Shown here one piece after another: positions 5,496 through 32,153 of a stretch of DNA of 32,164 bases; the first letter of the stretch is position 1; each line of letters starts with the position of its first letter. The stretch is from Holophagaceae bacterium (GTDB lineage Bacteria > Acidobacteriota > Holophagae > Holophagales > Holophagaceae): the NCBI GenBank assembly GCA_023257195.1, contig JALRCU010000042.1, positions 1 to 32,164 on the forward strand, read 5' to 3'. The position numbers and the translations under genes were made by a program. Under the pieces are notes generated by a model that worked only from the letters and a program-made list of their open reading frames with translations, had not been told where the DNA came from and did not search any database.

Positions 5496-6863
5496 TTGTC
5501 ATTCATAGCAGTTATATTGGCTGCCGGTAACAGCAAGAGAATGGTTTCTTCTAGGTCAAAGGTGTTGCACGAAATCCTTGGTGACTCCTCTCTCTTATGG
5601 GCTCTAAGAGCTATTCCGAAAGAAGTAAAAAATACGGTCATCGTGATCAACAAGAATCACGATGAAATAAAGCGCCTGGTTAAGGTTTGGGAAGACAAGA
5701 AACTTTTCAGTACAAGCGTTTACTTTGCCGTTCAGTCCTCGACAGTGGGTACAGCCCACGCATTGCTTTCAGCTAAACCATTAATCGACAAATTTAATGC
5801 AACCAATGTCCTTATTATGAGTGCCGATGTTCCACTAATAATGGAATCTAGCTTATCCAAACTTATAAAGAAGTGCCCATCGTTAGCCGTCGCAGATTTC
5901 ATTGAACCAAATGGATATGGAAGGATTTTCTTAAAAAAAGATGGAATACATTTGGCTTCCATCGTAGAGGACCTAGATACGAATAAAATGCAATCCCGTC
6001 ATCGGGTTGTGAATGGAGGTATCTATGCTCTTCCTTGTAAAAAGATTTTTCCTTTATTAAAAATGGTTAAAAATACCAACAAGCAAAAAGAATTTTATCT
6101 AACTGATGCAATCAATATACTTGCAGAAAATCAAAAGATTGAATCAGTACCTATCGACTCGCAAGAATTATTTGGATTGAATACTCGAACCGATCTTTCA
6201 CTTCTTCAAAACTATGCAAAAAACAGAGTGAATAGTAGATGGTTGAAAAGCGGGGTAACTATTTTAGATCCCTCTACAACGTTCATAGGCCCTCGAGTTA
6301 AGATAGGCTCCGATGTTTTGATTGAGCCCAATGTTACTTTAATTGGGGCCGTAACCATTGGTACCGGTAGCATAATCCAAGCTGGATCACGAATTGAAGA
6401 TTCCAAAATTGGAAATCACACCGTTATTAAGCCTTACACCCTCATCGATCGCTCGGTACTAACAAATCATGTTGTTGTAGGCCCCTTCGCACGTTTAAGG
6501 GAGGGCACTGAGTTATCAGATCATGTTCAAATAGGAAATTTTGTGGAAACCAAGAAGGCTAAGATATCTAAGGGCAGTAAGGCTAACCATCTTACTTACC
6601 TTGGGGATGTATCAATTGGAACTAATTCCAATATCGGAGCAGGAGTCATAACCTGCAACTATGACGGGCTCAAGAAGCACAAAACAGTTATCGGTGATAA
6701 TGTATTTATTGGCAGCGATACGCAGATAATTGCCCCAATCAAAGTCGGCGATGGAACTCTTGTGGCAGCGGGTACAACCGTAACCGTGGATATTCCCTCC
6801 CACCATAAGGCTAAAAGTCGCGTTCCTCAAGTAAACCGACCCCTTAAAAAGGCGAAGAAATAG
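5496..6863 (+). CDS. glmU: Bifunctional N-acetylglucosamine-1-phosphate uridyltransferase / glucosamine-1-phosphate acetyltransferase
   Basis: GlmU makes UDP-GlcNAc for peptidoglycan and lipid A. The 455-residue length is normal. The N-terminal nucleotidyltransferase domain (about 1-230) begins with LAAGNSKRM at 8-16 and keeps the substrate lysine K22 in SKVLHEI. The C-terminal left-handed beta-helix (about 250-445) shows hexapeptide repeats and the acetyltransferase signature NHLTYLGD at 364-371, with catalytic histidine H365, followed by NIGAGVITCNYDG. The start is TTG. The stop codon is immediately followed by the ATG of mlaE with no gap, so the two genes are probably co-translated. Confidence 0.97.
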   Translation: MSFIAVILAAGNSKRMVSSRSKVLHEILGDSSLLWALRAIPKEVKNTVIVINKNHDEIKRLVKVWEDKKLFSTSVYFAVQSSTVGTAHALLSAKPLIDKFNATNVLIMSADVPLIMESSLSKLIKKCPSLAVADFIEPNGYGRIFLKKDGIHLASIVEDLDTNKMQSRHRVVNGGIYALPCKKIFPLLKMVKNTNKQKEFYLTDAINILAENQKIESVPIDSQELFGLNTRTDLSLLQNYAKNRVNSRWLKSGVTILDPSTTFIGPRVKIGSDVLIEPNVTLIGAVTIGTGSIIQAGSRIEDSKIGNHTVIKPYTLIDRSVLTNHVVVGPFARLREGTELSDHVQIGNFVETKKAKISKGSKANHLTYLGDVSIGTNSNIGAGVITCNYDGLKKHKTVIGDNVFIGSDTQIIAPIKVGDGTLVAAGTTVTVDIPSHHKAKSRVPQVNRPLKKAKK

Positions 6864-7637
6864 ATGGTATCTTTTGTGGAATTTCTAGGGGCAAAAATCA
6901 TATCTAACGTTTCGTCTTTTGGTGATTTTATTCTTGTCAGCATTAGATGTTTCAGAAGTATTTTCAAGCGGCCCTTTGATACTAATTACTTTTTGAACCA
7001 ATGTTCTTTTGTAGGTGTTTCATCTGTACCTGTTGTTTTAATGACCTCTCTTTCAGTCAGCATGGTATTTGCTGTTCAATTAGCCTTTGGTTTCAAGCAA
7101 TTTCAAGCTGAAGGCTTGGCGAGTCAAGTCGAGGGGCTCGCTGTTATTAGAGAATTAGCACCAGTAATTACCGGGTTAATGCTTGCTGGACGCGTTGGAT
7201 CGGCAATGGCCGCTGAGATCGGTACCATGCGAATAACCGAGCAAATCGATGCCTTAGAGTGTTTAGCCACTGATCCCATTCATTATTTATTTGTGCCAAG
7301 ATTCTTGGCTGCAATTTTAATGCTGCCTATGTTGACAATACTTTCAATCTATATAAGCTTTTGGGGGGGTCATTTCATATTAGTTAATCTATCATTTCAG
7401 AGTTCAGACTTTTATACATCAGAGTTCTTTAAGTTAATATCCTCTTCGGATTTACGGATTGCTCTTATCAAAGCCTTCGTATTTGGTGTAATCATCTCTC
7501 TTGTTGGTTGCTGGAAAGGCTTCAGAACCGAGGGGGGCGCAGTTGGAGTCGGCGCGGCGCCTACCAGCAGTGTTGTTACATCAAGTCTATGGATATTGAT
7601 TGCTGACTTTGTTCTAACAAAACTTCTTTTGGTCTAA
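6864..7637 (+). CDS. mlaE: MlaE-type lipid ABC transporter permease
   Basis: MlaE forms the inner-membrane core of the MCE lipid transporter MlaFEDB, which moves phospholipids between the inner membrane and the outer envelope. The 257-residue protein shows the diagnostic MlaE segment near residues 90-135, with VIRELAPVITGLMLAGRVG, AAEIGTMRITEQIDALE and LATDPIHYLFVPRF. Hydrophobic segments lie near 48-72, 146-172 and 195-215, and again at the C-terminus. It begins directly at the glmU stop, and mlaF follows after 3 bases. Confidence 0.95.
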   Translation: MVSFVEFLGAKIISNVSSFGDFILVSIRCFRSIFKRPFDTNYFLNQCSFVGVSSVPVVLMTSLSVSMVFAVQLAFGFKQFQAEGLASQVEGLAVIRELAPVITGLMLAGRVGSAMAAEIGTMRITEQIDALECLATDPIHYLFVPRFLAAILMLPMLTILSIYISFWGGHFILVNLSFQSSDFYTSEFFKLISSSDLRIALIKAFVFGVIISLVGCWKGFRTEGGAVGVGAAPTSSVVTSSLWILIADFVLTKLLLV

Positions 7638-7640
7638 CTT

Positions 7641-8420
7641 ATGCCTATGATCAAACTTCATAATGTGTCAAAGGCTTTTGACCAAAATAAGGTTCTCGAT
7701 CGTATTTCACTCGAGGTAGAAGAATCTGAGAGTTTAGTTATCCTAGGGGGATCGGGCACAGGAAAAACAGTACTACTAAAAGTCATATTAGGCCTTCTTA
7801 GACCCAATGATGGAAACATTTTTGTCGACGGTGCTCGGGTCAACATTGATCAACCCACTGCCCTATTTGAAATAAGAAAGAAAATCGGAATGTGTTTCCA
7901 GATGGCAGCTCTATTTGATTCAATGACTGTTCTGGAAAATATTTCATTCGGCTTATCTCGACATACGAATTACTCGTCCGTGCAAATCCGATCGAGAGTC
8001 GACGAGTGCTTAACCTTAGTTGGCCTAAGAGACACCGCCACCCTTTACCCCTCGGAACTATCAGGGGGCATGAAACGTCGAGTCGGATTCGCAAGAGCCA
8101 TTGCGCTAAAGCCTAAGATCCTTCTTTTTGATGAACCTACAACAGGGCTCGATCCTGTAATGACTGATGTAATTTCTAAAGTTATTACAGATTTAAGAAG
8201 TGAGTTACGAGCGACGACAATTACTATCACGCATGATTTAAAGGTGGCGTTTAACATTGGCCAGAATATATCCCTGCTGCATAGAGGTTCAATAGTTGCC
8301 TCAGGAAGCCCCCAAGGTTTTGCATCGAACCAAGATCCCTTGGTCGTTCAATTCATAAAAGGAACATCCGAGGGCCCTTTTCTTGCCGATCCTCCCCCGA
8401 AATCACAAATAACGATATGA
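7641..8420 (+). CDS. mlaF: MlaF-type ABC transporter ATPase
   Basis: This is the ATPase that drives the MlaE lipid permease. The 259 residues contain Walker A GGSGTGKT at 36-43, the Q-loop glutamine Q87 in CFQMAALFDS, the ABC signature LSGGMKRR at 140-147, Walker B ILLFDEP at 160-166, the D-loop GLDPV, and the switch histidine H198 in THDL. The MAALFDSMTVLENI sequence after the Q-loop is typical of the Mla/Ttg2A/MKL branch. Genes on both sides are the matching permease and MCE protein. No MlaB-like STAS protein was found in the window. Confidence 0.95.
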   Translation: MPMIKLHNVSKAFDQNKVLDRISLEVEESESLVILGGSGTGKTVLLKVILGLLRPNDGNIFVDGARVNIDQPTALFEIRKKIGMCFQMAALFDSMTVLENISFGLSRHTNYSSVQIRSRVDECLTLVGLRDTATLYPSELSGGMKRRVGFARAIALKPKILLFDEPTTGLDPVMTDVISKVITDLRSELRATTITITHDLKVAFNIGQNISLLHRGSIVASGSPQGFASNQDPLVVQFIKGTSEGPFLADPPPKSQITI

Positions 8421-8450: not shown

Positions 8451-9827
8451 ATGAAGACAGAGTTTAAAGTCGGCATTTTCTTCCTAGCTACCATTGCTGC
8501 ATTGGTCACTTTAGTCTTATCTCTAGAAAAACTAGGGATATCTTCTAGACAAGATACAAATATTTATACGGCTTATTTTGATCAAGTTGCCGGCTTGAGT
8601 CGACAAAGTGACGTTCGGGCAGCAGGTGTTCGAGTTGGTAAAGTGGAGTCCATTAATCTCGAGGGTAACAAGGCAAAAGTTGTTTTTTCTCTACCTAAAA
8701 ATATAAATGTCTATTCAGACGCTCATGTAAGCCTGGTGTCGCTTGGCATACTCGGTGAGAAGTATATTGATTTTTCTAACGGTAGATTAACAAATACAAA
8801 TTTAGAATCAGGATCAACGTTGAAAACAGTTCAGGGGACTGGGTTGGATGAATTAGTGAATGTCCTAATAGACGTTGGGAAAGATATGAAAGCTATCACG
8901 GAAAGTCTTAACGGCGAAGGCGGTAAGTTGACATCCATTATGGATAATTTGGATGTTATGACTTCCGACTTGAGAGTACGAATTCCCCGACTAGCCGAAG
9001 ACTTTCAGAACGCTGCTCGAACCTTCAATGCATTCATTAAAGATAACGAAACAGAAACCTCAGGGGCCATCAAAGACTTTAGGTTACTCGCAACAAAGTT
9101 CCAAGTCACAGCAGATAACCTTAACGCCATGAGTCAGAAGATTAATAGTGGCGAGGGTACGCTTGGTAAACTTTTAAATGATGGTTCAACAGGTGAAAAG
9201 ATCAACAAGACTCTCGATTCACTAGAGTCGGCTCTGAGTGGCTATTCCAATCTGGACCTCAGGCTTGATGCTTCTGCTGCTTACTGGGCAGATAGAAGCG
9301 ATGCGCGTGCCGGACTCAGGATTGAAATGGCTCCGCAGAATGACTACTGGTACAGCCTAGATCTAAATAGTTCCCCGGACGGTAAGAACTCAAAGGTAAC
9401 CAGAACAACTACCAGTATTGATCCCATTACAGGGCTTCCGACAGGAATCGTTTCATCACAGTCAACAAGCATATCGGATAAAACCGTATCACTGTCGGCA
9501 GCCTTCAACAAAAAAGTAGGTAATGTTGTCTTCTCTGCCGGTATTTTTGATGGCAAGGGTGGCGGTTCCATCGAGGTGAGAAATTTGAATGACACCCTAA
9601 GATTGGGTTTTACTGCGTACGATTTTTCTAAAGATTCATCCATCAATAAAAATAATCCCAGATATCGTTTTACCTCTAGCTATCAGTTCTACAAGAATTT
9701 CTATATCCAAGCTGGTGTTCAGGATTTCGCCAATAAGGACTATCGAACAATGTTCGTGGGTGGCGGTATTCGTTGGAAAGATGAGGATCTTAAGAAGCTC
9801 CTGGGTCTTGCCGCTGTTGGAAGATAG
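8451..9827 (+). CDS. mlaD: MlaD-like MCE protein with long helical region and C-terminal beta-rich domain
   Basis: The 458-residue protein has an N-terminal membrane anchor at about 7-25, an MCE domain at about 37-112 (YFDQVAGLSRQSDVRAAGVRVG and LVSLGILGEKYIDFSNG-type segments), and a predicted helical stretch at about 130-262 with two glycine-rich breaks (NGEGGKL, NSGEGTLGKLLND). From about 265 to 443 it has at least ten alternating hydrophobic/polar strands rich in Y, F and G, ending with TMFVGGGIRW and then a short helix. E. coli MlaD is only about 183 residues. The last domain resembles an outer-membrane beta-barrel by eye, which is an inference. MlaD binds lipid and associates with MlaFE. 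DUF116 starts 2 bases downstream. The start ATG 8451 fits the MKTEFKVGIF family N-terminus. Confidence 0.88.
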   Translation: MKTEFKVGIFFLATIAALVTLVLSLEKLGISSRQDTNIYTAYFDQVAGLSRQSDVRAAGVRVGKVESINLEGNKAKVVFSLPKNINVYSDAHVSLVSLGILGEKYIDFSNGRLTNTNLESGSTLKTVQGTGLDELVNVLIDVGKDMKAITESLNGEGGKLTSIMDNLDVMTSDLRVRIPRLAEDFQNAARTFNAFIKDNETETSGAIKDFRLLATKFQVTADNLNAMSQKINSGEGTLGKLLNDGSTGEKINKTLDSLESALSGYSNLDLRLDASAAYWADRSDARAGLRIEMAPQNDYWYSLDLNSSPDGKNSKVTRTTTSIDPITGLPTGIVSSQSTSISDKTVSLSAAFNKKVGNVVFSAGIFDGKGGGSIEVRNLNDTLRLGFTAYDFSKDSSINKNNPRYRFTSSYQFYKNFYIQAGVQDFANKDYRTMFVGGGIRWKDEDLKKLLGLAAVGR

Positions 9828-9829
9828 AA

Positions 9830-10597
9830 GTGGAATCCATCAGTATTCAACCCCTTATTGGCTCAAGGCTTTTTAGGAGCGTAAGGTTCGGCATCCCTTT
9901 CATAGTCCTAGTTGTTTCGCTTTATCTTTTTCTTGAAACAAGAAATAACTTTGCCTCATGGTATTTAATTCTTACCATAACTTCCCTTCTGGCTATTGAA
10001 TTGTCAATGAGAGAGGGAGAGCGCTACATTGCTTCCCACAGCTCTATTATGCGCGTCGATCTATTTTTTGTAGATGCACTTAGACCCATATTTAAACTCA
10101 TAAAAAGGGAAGAGGTTTTTCTCATGAGTTTCTTCAGATGGAATAATGAAAAGGTTTATAAATGTTTCGTGGACTCAAAGTCGAAGAAAACACTTTTACT
10201 TCTCCCGCATTGCATTCAATGGTCTAACTGTACTGCACCTATCCTCGAAAAAATGGCTTCCTGTTACAACTGTGGTCTATGCCACATCGAAAATCTTGTA
10301 GAAGACACCGTCCAAGAACAGTGGGATGTAAGAATTACGAATCGAAGTTATAAGGCGTACATCGAAGCTATGAAAACAAACCCAGATCTCATCGTTGCTG
10401 TAAGTTGTACCGATCGTCTTCTGAAGGGGGTTCGAAAACTTCTCAATTATCCATCCTTTTTGATTCCATTAGAGCTTCCTTTTGGCATGTGTGTGGATGC
10501 AACTTTTAATTACGACCATCTCACATCAGCAATGTCCTTACTCGCGCAAAGACGAAATACGAATAATCCTCCGATTAAAATACTAAAGCACGGCTAA
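9830..10597 (+). CDS. DUF116 family cysteine-rich membrane protein
   Basis: The 255-residue protein begins at GTG, 2 bases after the MlaD-like gene. Two hydrophobic segments near 21-38 and 44-58 would anchor it in the inner membrane. The remaining soluble part has eight cysteines: C112, C128 (LLPHC), C134, C145, C148, C151 (CYNCGLC), C193 (AVSC) and C221 (GMC). The LPHC...C...CxxCGxC...C...C order is that of DUF116, a family without established function. The cysteine pattern suggests metal or iron-sulfur binding, which is an inference. It overlaps the next gene by 1 base (TAATG). A function in lipid or isoprenoid handling is suggested only by its position between mlaD and a prenyltransferase. 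Confidence 0.8.
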   Translation: MESISIQPLIGSRLFRSVRFGIPFIVLVVSLYLFLETRNNFASWYLILTITSLLAIELSMREGERYIASHSSIMRVDLFFVDALRPIFKLIKREEVFLMSFFRWNNEKVYKCFVDSKSKKTLLLLPHCIQWSNCTAPILEKMASCYNCGLCHIENLVEDTVQEQWDVRITNRSYKAYIEAMKTNPDLIVAVSCTDRLLKGVRKLLNYPSFLIPLELPFGMCVDATFNYDHLTSAMSLLAQRRNTNNPPIKILKHG

Positions 10598-11466
10598 TGT
10601 CTATCGATATAAGACCATATATCATGCATTTGAGGCCTAAAGAGTGGCCTATCGTTGGACTTCATTTGATTGCTGGCATGCTCTGTTCAAAGAACTTTGA
10701 TTTTCATGATGCCGCCAGGTCTACATTCATATTTATATTACTTCTTAACGGCGGAACTCTCGCCTTAAATTCCTCTTTCGACAATGATGAGGGTGATATC
10801 GCTTTCTTGAATAACCCACCCAAGCCACCCAAGTATCTCAAACACTTTGGTCTATTACTTTTATCTTTATCTCTCTTTGCTTCAATGTTAGAAGCGAATA
10901 AAACCATCGGTGATAAATATTTCTTTGAAATCATAATGACATGCGTTTTAATGAGTATCGCTTATTCGACACCTCCAATTCGCCTAAAGTCTAGACCCGG
11001 CTATGATCTAGTCATTAATTCAATTGGATTTGGCTTCTTTACATTTCTAGCGGGCTTTGTATCCACAGGAAACGCATTTACACCTGAGATTCTTAAACTA
11101 TCTGTTGGTTTTGGTTTTTTATTTGGCGCGCTATACCCGTTAACTCAAATTTATCAGAACGACGAGGATAGTCGTCGTGGCGATCAGACGTTGACATTAT
11201 GGTTGGGTACCAATAAAGCATTGAATTTATCCATGGGATTCTCGTTAGTAGCTTTTCTCTGGATTATCTGGGGGACACTCCACAGCGGAATATATACAAT
11301 CATGCTTCTTTTCAATCTTATGCTTTGGCTTTATTTGCTTTATTATTGGAAACGTCGCTTAAAATCGATGTCTGCAATGAATCATAAAAGATTTATGTAT
11401 TTTTTCTTACTATTATGGCCCTTGACTGATTTCATTGTCCTAGGCGCACATTTTGCTAGATATTAA
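10597..11466 (+). CDS. UbiA-family prenyltransferase, atypical subgroup
   Basis: UbiA-type enzymes are multi-spanning membrane proteins that transfer an isoprenoid chain to an acceptor. This 289-residue protein has about eight hydrophobic segments and two aspartate-rich motifs. The first, N58SSFDNDEGD67, is followed by the unusual IAFLNNPPKPPKYL; the second is IYQNDEDSRRGD at 185-196. The first motif differs from the common NDxxDxxxD...NRPL pattern of menaquinone and ubiquinone enzymes. It could be the MqnP prenyltransferase of the futalosine pathway, since mqnE and mqnC are nearby, or act on another acceptor. It overlaps the DUF116 gene by 1 base, and pgeF follows after 2 bases. Confidence 0.8.
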   Translation: MSIDIRPYIMHLRPKEWPIVGLHLIAGMLCSKNFDFHDAARSTFIFILLLNGGTLALNSSFDNDEGDIAFLNNPPKPPKYLKHFGLLLLSLSLFASMLEANKTIGDKYFFEIIMTCVLMSIAYSTPPIRLKSRPGYDLVINSIGFGFFTFLAGFVSTGNAFTPEILKLSVGFGFLFGALYPLTQIYQNDEDSRRGDQTLTLWLGTNKALNLSMGFSLVAFLWIIWGTLHSGIYTIMLLFNLMLWLYLLYYWKRRLKSMSAMNHKRFMYFFLLLWPLTDFIVLGAHFARY

Positions 11467-20048: not shown

Positions 20049-20089
20049 TTACTAACTTAAAACGTTCCGCATTTTGTTTGGCTTACTGT

Positions 20090-21223
20090 ATGACTAGTGA
20101 TCACGCAATCCTTCGTGGTATCCGTGATTCTAGTCTTAAGAACGTTGCACAAAAGGTACTTAATGGGCAGAGGCTGAACATTGAGGACGGGCTCCTTCTC
20201 TACACTACCAATGATTTATCTTCCCTAGGGTCCCTAGCGAATCACGTAAGACTAAGAAAACATGGTCTTAAGACGTTCTATGTCCACAGTCGCAGGCTCT
20301 CCTATACAAATATCTGCTATACCCACTGCCAATTCTGTGCGTTCCAGGCTAAGCCGGGCGATCCCAGAGCGTATGTGCTTACAGCCGAGGATATTATCAA
20401 GGATTTATCTTCAGACGTTAATAAGGGAGTTCGGGAACTCCATATGGTTGCTGGTCATTACCCGAAACTTAAAATTGATTATTTCGAAGATTTATTTATA
20501 AAGATTAAGCAGAAATTTCCCGATATCCATTTGAAAGTTTTTACTATGGTTGAAATGGATTATTACGCTCGTGTAAGTGGGATATCTATAGAGGAATTTC
20601 TCGATCGATGCATTGCTGCGGGTCTGGAAAGTTGTCCGGGTGGAGGTGCTGAGATTTTTGATGAGGAAATAAGACAAAAGATTTGTATTGGGAAAAAAGA
20701 TGCGGAGATTTGGCTAAATAATGCGAGAATTTGTCACAAAAAGGGGTTGAAAACTAATTGCACAATGCTGTATGGACACATCGAAAAGCCCTTACATAAG
20801 ATCGATCATCTTAACCGACTCCGGACTCTACAAGATGAGACAAACGGCTTTCTTGCATACATTCCCTTGGCTTATCAAATTGAGGATAATGAATTAGGGA
20901 GAACATACCCAATCCGAGAAACAACAGGGTATGCAGATCTTCGAGAAATTGCTGTGGCTAGATTATTTTTAGATAATATTCCGCATATTAAAGCGTACTG
21001 GGTCATGATCACCGAAGGGCTCGCGCAAGTTGCACTTTCGTTTGGAGCCAATGATCTCGATGGAACTATCATTCAAGAAGAGATAGCTCACAATGCTGGA
21101 GCTAAGACCCCGCAAATGCTTACGAAGCAGAGACTTCAAGATTTGATCTCTTCAGCTGGCTACATACCTTCAGAGAGAGATCATCTCTACCGGGAGTATG
21201 CACAGCCATCTGCGGCTATTTAA
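20090..21223 (+). CDS. mqnE: Aminofutalosine synthase MqnE (radical SAM)
   Basis: MqnE joins 3-enolpyruvyl-benzoate and S-adenosylmethionine to make aminodeoxyfutalosine in the futalosine menaquinone pathway. The radical SAM cysteines lie in the CYTHCQFCAF segment as CxxxCxxC, followed by AKPGDPRAYVLT. The segment ELHMVAGHYPKL and the following KVFTMVEMDYYAR separate it from MqnC, which has LLQGG instead. SCPGGGAEIFD and PLAYQ are further family marks. ATG 20090 gives 377 residues and a family-like N-terminus; TTG 20078 would add four. Neither start has a clear ribosome binding site. The gene lies 41 bases after rpoZ and 2 bases before the cyclo-ligase. Confidence 0.93.
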   Translation: MTSDHAILRGIRDSSLKNVAQKVLNGQRLNIEDGLLLYTTNDLSSLGSLANHVRLRKHGLKTFYVHSRRLSYTNICYTHCQFCAFQAKPGDPRAYVLTAEDIIKDLSSDVNKGVRELHMVAGHYPKLKIDYFEDLFIKIKQKFPDIHLKVFTMVEMDYYARVSGISIEEFLDRCIAAGLESCPGGGAEIFDEEIRQKICIGKKDAEIWLNNARICHKKGLKTNCTMLYGHIEKPLHKIDHLNRLRTLQDETNGFLAYIPLAYQIEDNELGRTYPIRETTGYADLREIAVARLFLDNIPHIKAYWVMITEGLAQVALSFGANDLDGTIIQEEIAHNAGAKTPQMLTKQRLQDLISSAGYIPSERDHLYREYAQPSAAI

Positions 21224-30178: not shown

Positions 30179-31078
30179 ATGAGCAACGTTCAGCAGCTTA
30201 TAGTAGCGATATCATCGCGTGCTTTGTTTGATTTTGAGGATGAAAATCAATTTTTTGAAGCCGAAGGGGACCAAGCCTATATGAGGTTGCAGCTATCCCG
30301 ATTAGATATACCGGCTAAGCGAGGAGTAGCGTTTCCTCTTATCAAGAAACTCATGGCTTTCAATACAGCCGATGAAAACTTAGTTGAAGTTGTCATCCTA
30401 TCTAGGAATGATCCCGTCAGCGGAATGCGAGTCTTTAAAAGTGCTCAAGCGGAATCCTTAGATGTAAAACGAGGTGTTTTTATCAAGGGTCGTCCCCCTT
30501 TTCCTTACCTAAAACCCCTTGGTGCTACGCTTTTCCTTTCGGCTAAAGAAGAGGATGTTCGCGAAGCATTACTCTCCGGATATCCTGCAGCGAGGGTCTA
30601 TCCATCTTCTTCTAATGACGCTGACCAACATCCCAATGAAGTCCGGATTGCATTTGACGGAGATGCAGTTCTATTTAGTGACGAAGCCGAAATCGTGTAT
30701 CAAAAGTCTAAATTAGACGGCTTCCAGCAGCATGAGAAAAAAAATGCTCTAAATCCCCTACCGGATGGTCCCTTCAAGCCTTTTCTTTCAGCATTAAATG
30801 TTCTTCAACTTCGGTCTAAGGGTTCGAGCATGAAGATTCGCACCGCCCTGGTTACGGCCAGAAGCGCCCCAAGTCACGAAAGAGCCATCAGAACTCTAAT
30901 GTCATGGAACATTCACGTCGATGAAGCCATGTTTCTTGGTGGTTTATCAAAGACCGAATACCTAAAGGAATTCGAACCTGATTTCTTTTTTGATGACCAA
31001 ACCGGACATTGTGAGGATGCAGCTAGAAATATTATTCCTACAGGTCATGTTGTGAGTGGAATTAAAAATATTAGGTAG
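30179..31078 (+). CDS. Cytosolic 5'-nucleotidase (cN-I-like)
   Basis: The 299-residue protein matches the bacterial 5'-nucleotidase family related to eukaryotic cN-I. Typical segments are SSRALFDFEDEN at 12-23, VVILSRNDPVSGMRVFKS, FIKGRPPFPYLKPLGATLFLSAKEEDVREAL, RIAFDGDAVLFSDEAE and the C-terminal AMFLGGLSKTEYLKEFEPDFFFDDQ. It removes phosphate from nucleoside monophosphates such as AMP or IMP in the cytosol. It follows the secreted phosphodiesterase by 7 bases, which suggests shared use in phosphate or purine recovery. The last 8 bases overlap the 3' end of mqnC, running opposite. Confidence 0.88.
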   Translation: MSNVQQLIVAISSRALFDFEDENQFFEAEGDQAYMRLQLSRLDIPAKRGVAFPLIKKLMAFNTADENLVEVVILSRNDPVSGMRVFKSAQAESLDVKRGVFIKGRPPFPYLKPLGATLFLSAKEEDVREALLSGYPAARVYPSSSNDADQHPNEVRIAFDGDAVLFSDEAEIVYQKSKLDGFQQHEKKNALNPLPDGPFKPFLSALNVLQLRSKGSSMKIRTALVTARSAPSHERAIRTLMSWNIHVDEAMFLGGLSKTEYLKEFEPDFFFDDQTGHCEDAARNIIPTGHVVSGIKNIR

Positions 31079-32153
31079 TTTTACCCTTATTGATAGCACC
31101 ATAGACGTTATCTCTTTGCCAAGGTATGAACCCGGCATCCATAATAAGATGGTTCATTTCTTCTAAGTTGACGCTGTAGCAAGTTCCTGCTGCGCTGACA
31201 ACATTTTCTTCCAGCATCAATGAGCCCATATCATCACAACCAAATGCTAGAGCAACTTGGCCAGTTTTCTTGCCCATAGTGACCCATGAAGACTGAATAT
31301 GTGGAATGTTATCAAGATAAAGTCTGGCTATCGCTATCGTCCTTAAGTATTCATCATCGTTTGCGATGGGAATTTTACCCTCCCAGACCGTGTTCCCTGG
31401 CTGAAAGGGCCAAGCAACAAATGCCGTATACCCACCCCCATTGGGAGTCCTCAAAGCACGATCCTGTTGTGTGCGGATTACATCAAAATGTTGCAACTTC
31501 TCTAAGGTAGTTTCGCCAATACCATACATCATAGTTGCCGTGGTTTTCATTCCTTCTTCGTGAGCTGCTTCCATTACTTCAAGCCAACGTTCGGGGCCAC
31601 CTTTGAGGGGGGCAATTTTTTTACGAATCCGGGGTACTAAGATTTCTGCACCTCCCCCTGGAATGGAACCGAGTCCTGCGTGCTTCAGTTCAGCAATAGT
31701 TTGACGAAGGGTTTTATGATTAAGTTTGGACATCATTTGAATTTCAACAGGAGAAAAACCATGAACCCAAAGACCCAATTCGGAATTTATGTAGGAAACC
31801 AGATCTAAGTAGTATTCCCAGGGTAAATCAGGATTAACACCTCCTTGCAGGAGAAATCCGGTACCGCCAAGGGCTTTTGTCTCTTCAGCTTTTACCTTCA
31901 ACTGTTCTTTTGTAAGTACGTACCCCTTTGTATCACCTGGCTTCTTGTAAAAAGCGCAAAAGGTACAGTAAACGTTGCAGATATCCGTATAGTTAACGTT
32001 ACGATCTATGACGTAACTCACTTTGGATGGATCATTGTGTTTATTTCGAATGAATGTTGCTGCTTGACTAAGTTCTGGCAGACTTGCAGAGTCATAAAGC
32101 GTAGCCGCTTCATCAATCGATAAACGCTGTGAGGAATATACTTTGTCTAACAA
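31071..32153 (-). CDS. mqnC: Cyclic dehypoxanthine futalosine synthase MqnC (radical SAM; 5' end at or just beyond the right edge)
   Basis: MqnC cyclises dehypoxanthine futalosine in the futalosine menaquinone pathway. In the 360 residues from TTG 32153 the radical SAM cysteines are C59, C63 and C66 (DICNVYCTFCAF), followed by YKKPGDTKGYVL, GTGFLLQGGVNPDLPWEYY and IPGGGAEILVPRIRK. The LLQGGxNPD segment separates MqnC from MqnE. The frame stays open from 32153 to the window edge and no ATG is in frame there, so the true start may be TTG 32153 or a codon beyond the edge. Typical MqnC length (about 360-370) means little can be missing. Confidence 0.92.
   Translation of the reverse strand: MLDKVYSSQRLSIDEAATLYDSASLPELSQAATFIRNKHNDPSKVSYVIDRNVNYTDICNVYCTFCAFYKKPGDTKGYVLTKEQLKVKAEETKALGGTGFLLQGGVNPDLPWEYYLDLVSYINSELGLWVHGFSPVEIQMMSKLNHKTLRQTIAELKHAGLGSIPGGGAEILVPRIRKKIAPLKGGPERWLEVMEAAHEEGMKTTATMMYGIGETTLEKLQHFDVIRTQQDRALRTPNGGGYTAFVAWPFQPGNTVWEGKIPIANDDEYLRTIAIARLYLDNIPHIQSSWVTMGKKTGQVALAFGCDDMGSLMLEENVVSAAGTCYSVNLEEMNHLIMDAGFIPWQRDNVYGAINKGKTT

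Follow-up and report, generated by a model that had tools for sequence, protein, structure and literature searches.

A long MlaD protein with a predicted C-terminal outer-membrane-type beta barrel in a minimal mlaEFD operon of a reduced Acidobacteriota genome

Results and discussion

The mlaEFD locus

The window, that is, the whole stretch of 32,164 nucleotides that was analysed, belongs to a strongly reduced Acidobacteriota genome (1,195,406 bases in 56 contigs, 97% complete). Three genes for a lipid transporter follow glmU in this window, and the last of them, mlaD, encodes the only MCE protein found in the source genome. The genes, and the regions of the MlaD protein, are as follows.

5496-6863, plus strand: glmU, which precedes mlaE, mlaF and mlaD on the same strand, near-contiguously
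6864-7637, plus strand: mlaE, lipid ABC permease, 257 aa (PF02405, 5.7e-75; TIGR00056 above cut-off)
7641-8420, plus strand: mlaF, lipid ABC ATPase, 259 aa (ABC_tran, 3.8e-33)
8451-9827, plus strand: mlaD of the long, barrel-bearing type, 458 aa, ATG start (open reading frame, Pfam and fold model)
8451-8534, plus strand: predicted inner-membrane anchor helix, residues 1-28 (hydrophobic stretch; helix 2-28 in the low-confidence full-length model)
8556-8780, plus strand: MCE domain, residues 36-110 (Pfam MlaD PF02470, 2e-18)
8847-9239, plus strand: predicted helical bridge, residues 133-263 (low-confidence full-length model; length comparison)
9255-9776, plus strand: predicted ten-strand outer-membrane-type beta barrel, residues 269-442 (AlphaFold2 model, Foldseek, amphipathicity, conservation)
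9753-9776, plus strand: last strand, FVGGGIRW, which fits the BAM beta-signal pattern G-x-x-hydrophobic-x-aromatic
9780-9821, plus strand: predicted amphipathic C-terminal helix, residues 444-457, DEDLKKLLGLAAVG (both models)

The best NCBIfam match of mlaF was MlaF PRK11831, under the cut-off of that model. The order mlaE-mlaF-mlaD is kept across the family, as the comparison of flanking regions indicated, and mlaF lies directly 5' of mlaD in nearly all the Acidobacteriota relatives checked. In a relative of the same genus (L002) the gene order is the same, mlaE is syntenic and 92% identical, and MlaD is 81% identical. MlaD was also present in all 26 other same-family genomes of the first draw of the phylum. 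On the 3' side of mlaD (9830-11466) come genes for a DUF116 protein and for a UbiA-type prenyltransferase, as in most of the family relatives whose flanking region was compared.

The alignment showed that the beginning of the protein, MKTEFKVGIFF, is common to other MCE proteins. When the profile of the relatives was compared with the PDB, it matched solved MlaD and Mce1 chains. The helical region that follows the MCE domain gave a weak match to Mce4_CUP1, below the cut-off.

The C-terminal domain is predicted to fold as an outer-membrane-type barrel

Residues 260-458 were folded alone, using a thin alignment of three sequences (the window protein, L002 and L004, the latter from an Epsilonproteobacterium). 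The model obtained (mean pLDDT 71.9, pTM 0.64, with strand blocks mostly at 77-91) consists of ten antiparallel strands, at residues 269-279, 284-294, 299-308, 345-356, 359-366, 369-378, 383-390, 404-413, 417-424 and 433-442, followed by a helix from residue 444. Only the two ends and one long loop had pLDDT values below 50, and residues 309-344 form a disordered loop. The initial annotation had proposed an MCE protein carrying its own beta-barrel-like domain, with at least ten amphipathic strands between residues 265 and 443. Exactly ten are predicted, the three strand segments that it quoted all lie in the open reading frame 8451-9827, and the Pfam match at 36-110 together with the model of 269-442 bears out the combination of the two domains. 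In fact, the alternation of hydrophobic and polar residues in the ten strands was 0.96, as compared to 0.40 ± 0.09 in within-strand shuffles, and none of 5000 shuffles reached the observed value; chance amphipathicity of the strands was rejected on this basis.

A Foldseek search of the PDB returned neighbours of the model that are nearly all outer-membrane barrels, and a search of a viral structure library gave the same result. The best neighbour by TM-score was a designed ten-strand transmembrane barrel, TMB10_163 (8uzl), with a TM-score of 0.49 by query and 0.63 by target; the scores of the model to solved barrels were below 0.5 by query length. In outer-membrane barrels, turns on the periplasmic side are usually short and loops on the outside long. 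In the model, the turns on the side of the N-terminus count 4, 2, 4 and 3 residues, and the loops on the opposite side 4, 36, 2, 13 and 8. If the N-terminus is taken as periplasmic, the polarity is therefore the one expected of an outer-membrane barrel.

The last strand points in the same direction. The pattern G-x-x-hydrophobic-x-aromatic, which is the signal recognised by BamA, was found at the C-terminal end of the barrel in 30 of 34 relatives, and in one of them (L055) the protein terminates exactly on the terminal Phe of the signal. The source genome encodes two Omp85 proteins, the class that inserts barrels, and one TamB. The motif DEDLK-LLG of the C-terminal helix is kept in most relatives, not in all. 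In three proteins from other Acidobacteriota families (L061, L064 and L066) the barrel domain is compact, at about 146 aa: strands 3 and 4 are not joined by the long loop, the C-terminal helix is missing, and the protein ends within 1-2 residues of the last strand.

Comparison of the window protein with L002 shows purifying selection on the barrel domain, although the selection ratio is rough, synonymous sites being close to saturated. The most constrained stretch measured is the second part of the barrel (residues 345-443), which is 89% identical in the two proteins.

The profile of the barrel found nothing among PDB sequences (best E = 3.7), and no Pfam family consistently matched the C-terminal domain. 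Since these searches were empty, the identity of the barrel rests on the structure prediction and on the motif, which at moderate model confidence suggest that the C-terminus of MlaD is an outer-membrane-type barrel. We also considered a soluble periplasmic beta domain, either lipocalin-like or a sandwich, that would take lipid from the tunnel. Alternating strands occur in soluble barrels too, and conservation did not differ between the two faces of the strands (entropy 2.04 vs. 2.10, p = 0.65), the polar face being no more conserved than the hydrophobic one. However, the top Foldseek matches were outer-membrane barrels, with one hot-dog fold at rank 40 (TM-score 0.19), and a soluble domain would account poorly for the conserved beta-signal, for a relative ending exactly on its Phe, for the polarity of the turns and for the lack of a consistent Pfam family. 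A soluble domain is thus very improbable. The fold neighbours, the beta-signal and the polarity of the turns led us to reject the sandwich, whose prediction the initial annotation had named as an argument against a bridge.

MlaA and MlaC are missing and the barrel occurs in part of the phylum

The operon contains neither mlaC nor mlaA, as had been noticed from the sequence, and the search of the 97%-complete source genome for MlaC (PF05494) and MlaA (PF04333) found neither, whereas the E. coli and Caulobacter positive controls matched. The second argument against a direct bridge that the initial annotation had named, intact copies of both genes elsewhere, is thus not borne out either. An ordinary Mla system of the E. 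coli type, with both genes in the missing 3% or so of a genome assembled in 56 contigs, would explain this absence. However, MlaA was found in none of 297 Acidobacteriota genomes and MlaC in six, and on this phylum-wide scarcity the loss of the two genes in an assembly gap was rejected. Moreover, the window MlaD counts 458 aa with a conserved C-terminal domain and does not stop early after the MCE domain. We regard an E. coli-type system as extremely unlikely.

Using the barrel profile (alignment A3, in which L004 is included as a row), the barrel domain was detected in 88 of the 297 Acidobacteriota genomes, distributed over 49 of 167 genera, and in all 27 drawn members of the source organism's own family. 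Some match to the whole MlaD protein was obtained in 258 of the 297 genomes. The barrel is thus frequent in the phylum without being universal, and most members do without it. Five of the six genomes positive for MlaC (G001, G017, G031, G090 and G099) also encode a barrel-bearing MlaD and none has MlaA, so that MlaC and the barrel are not strictly exclusive. The MlaC hits in these barrel-bearing genomes could be other members of PF05494.

Comparison with known MCE systems

The initial annotation left it in doubt whether such a fusion had been described before. It has: MlaD of Veillonella parvula is a protein of 419 aa with an anchor, an MCE domain, about 150 helical residues and a ten-strand barrel, and it is encoded with MlaE and MlaF only, in the absence of MlaA and MlaC (Grasekamp et al., 2023; PMC10665443). 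In that work, the barrel, as a separate construct, was recovered in the outer-membrane fraction. The tunnel was modelled at about 23.5 nm, in agreement with a periplasm measured at 24.2 ± 1.8 nm, and mutants of mla showed lipid-asymmetry phenotypes that tamB mutations suppressed. The barrel was inferred in 103 sequences, some of the barrel-bearing members having an additional helical extension, and it was judged too narrow for a lipid; predictions made six barrels in one ring look unlikely (PMC10665443). The word Acidobacter- is absent from the main text of the same paper.

The window MlaD shares with that of V. parvula the order of the domains, the ten-strand barrel, an operon of mlaE, mlaF and mlaD only and the absence of MlaA and MlaC, a likeness judged on architecture, operon and gene absence and not on barrel-to-barrel sequence. 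The two proteins are similar in length (458 vs. 419 aa); they differ in phylum and in the helical segment (about 130 vs. about 150 residues). A full-length match is MlaD of an Epsilonproteobacterium metagenome-assembled genome (L004), which includes the barrel, the beta-signal and a terminal DxDLK helix; its identity to the window protein is 22-26% and its helical region is about 29 residues longer.

The E. coli Mla system has a homologous MlaE, MlaF and MCE domain, but its MlaD, of 183 aa, is devoid of the long helix and of the barrel, and it works with MlaB, MlaC and MlaA, of which MlaC and MlaA were not found in the source genome. As is proposed for the window type, PqiB, LetB (YebT) and mycobacterial Mce1 build MCE rings whose helical or stacked tunnels traverse the periplasm, and along the helical region the profile of the window MlaD family matches chains of Mce1. 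Unlike the window MlaD, none of these proteins has a ten-strand barrel in each chain; in Mce1, six chains together form one small six-strand barrel (as cited in PMC10665443).

The bridging architecture of MlaD was therefore already published in 2023, and the window protein is a further, well-conserved example of it. What is added here is the distribution in Acidobacteriota, a diagnostic motif and a bridge shortened by 31 residues. With the barrel profile and the end motif GGGIRW-DEDLK-LLG, proteins of this type are easily found.

A putative bridge between the two membranes

It is evident from sequence and prediction that one polypeptide joins an anchor, an MCE domain, a helical segment of about 130 residues and a ten-strand barrel of the outer-membrane type. 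We consider it likely that this MlaD belongs to a minimal MlaEFD lipid transporter of the V. parvula type, encoded by only three genes. By analogy with the relatives, a hexameric ring of MCE domains would sit on MlaE, and the helices would together make up a tunnel through the periplasm, hydrophobic on the inside. BamA would insert the barrel into the outer membrane, and phospholipids would be moved at the expense of ATP, most likely from the outer to the inner membrane, in the absence of a periplasmic shuttle. The barrel itself, probably too narrow for a lipid, would most likely anchor the mouth of the tunnel at the inner leaflet of the outer membrane. A single-polypeptide bridge in place of the MlaC/MlaA relay had been suggested from the sequence of the window, and this idea, proposed and partly tested for V. 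parvula (PMC10665443), is supported by our results; for the window organism, both the spanning of the periplasm and the replacement of the relay are what we infer. How six barrels are accommodated on one ring is sterically unexplained, here as in PMC10665443.

The main rival explanation accepts the outer-membrane barrel and gives it a mainly structural role, as a tether of the transporter or of the two membranes, while lipids leave the MCE ring via a diffusible carrier, TamB or a membrane contact. The barrel is absent from most of the Acidobacteriota genomes that encode MCE proteins, hence MCE systems in general do not need it; the narrowness attributed to the V. parvula barrel (PMC10665443) and the TamB encoded in the source genome fit such a role as well. 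Nevertheless, neither MlaC nor MlaA was found, and both the helices and the barrel have been retained under purifying selection in a strongly reduced genome. For these reasons we judge a mere tether unlikely. Coming from another phylum and from a strongly reduced genome, the window example supports the published view of the basic Mla system as a bridge made by three genes, as against the six-gene relay of E. coli.

The helical bridge is shortened in one genus

In the full-length model of the monomer, obtained with five sequences (mean pLDDT 52, poor outside the MCE domain), helices are predicted at residues 133-153, 158-198, 205-232 and 248-263, with breaks in between; the model is too poor for their path and reach to be read from it. 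The length of the region, which is present in all the relatives, can be compared more directly. The span between residues 128 and 265 counts 138 residues in the window MlaD and in L002, 169 in each of 26 family relatives from other genera, and 163-193 in the other 58 aligned proteins. The bridge is thus 31 residues shorter than in the family relatives, and the difference from each of the 58 is 25 residues or more. Among 59 aligned relatives the shortening is common only to L002, which belongs to the same genus. It results from losses of 25 and 6 residues in the helical region, the length of the barrel being unchanged. No MlaD match was obtained in a further genome of the genus, the third, which is 84% complete, and L082 (G299) and L002 may come from one organism; the shortening therefore rests on two species.

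At 1.5 Å per residue, 31 residues correspond to about 4.6 nm of straight helix. If the helices are straight and the protein is stretched between the membranes, the periplasm of this lake genus is expected to be a few nm thinner than that of its family relatives with larger genomes. We put forward only tentatively, as a doubtful possibility, that the helical segment of MlaD acts as a molecular ruler of the width of the periplasm. The TamB frames of the two matching genomes of the genus are 1319 and 1311 aa long, as compared to at least 1329 aa in the rest of the family, when frames are taken from stop to stop and two of 693 and 261 aa, apparently cut by contig ends, are left out. These short frames would be weakly consistent with a thinner periplasm, considering that genome reduction could shorten proteins generally and that the frames run from stop to stop. 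The naturally shortened bridge offers a simple test of whether MlaD really spans the periplasm.

Other genes in the window

The open reading frame at 519-2750 encodes a protein of 743 aa that is apparently a tandem LptF-LptG fusion. Four stretches of it match LptF_LptG, and its first half can be aligned to its second (25% identity over 166 residues, E = 3e-07). The source genome gave no match to the LptD family (PF04453), in spite of its LptF/LptG-like permeases; LptD may be divergent or lost. Two radical-SAM proteins, encoded at 20078-21223 and 31071-32153, have C-terminal regions of the CofH/MqnC type, and this pair suggests the futalosine route to menaquinone.
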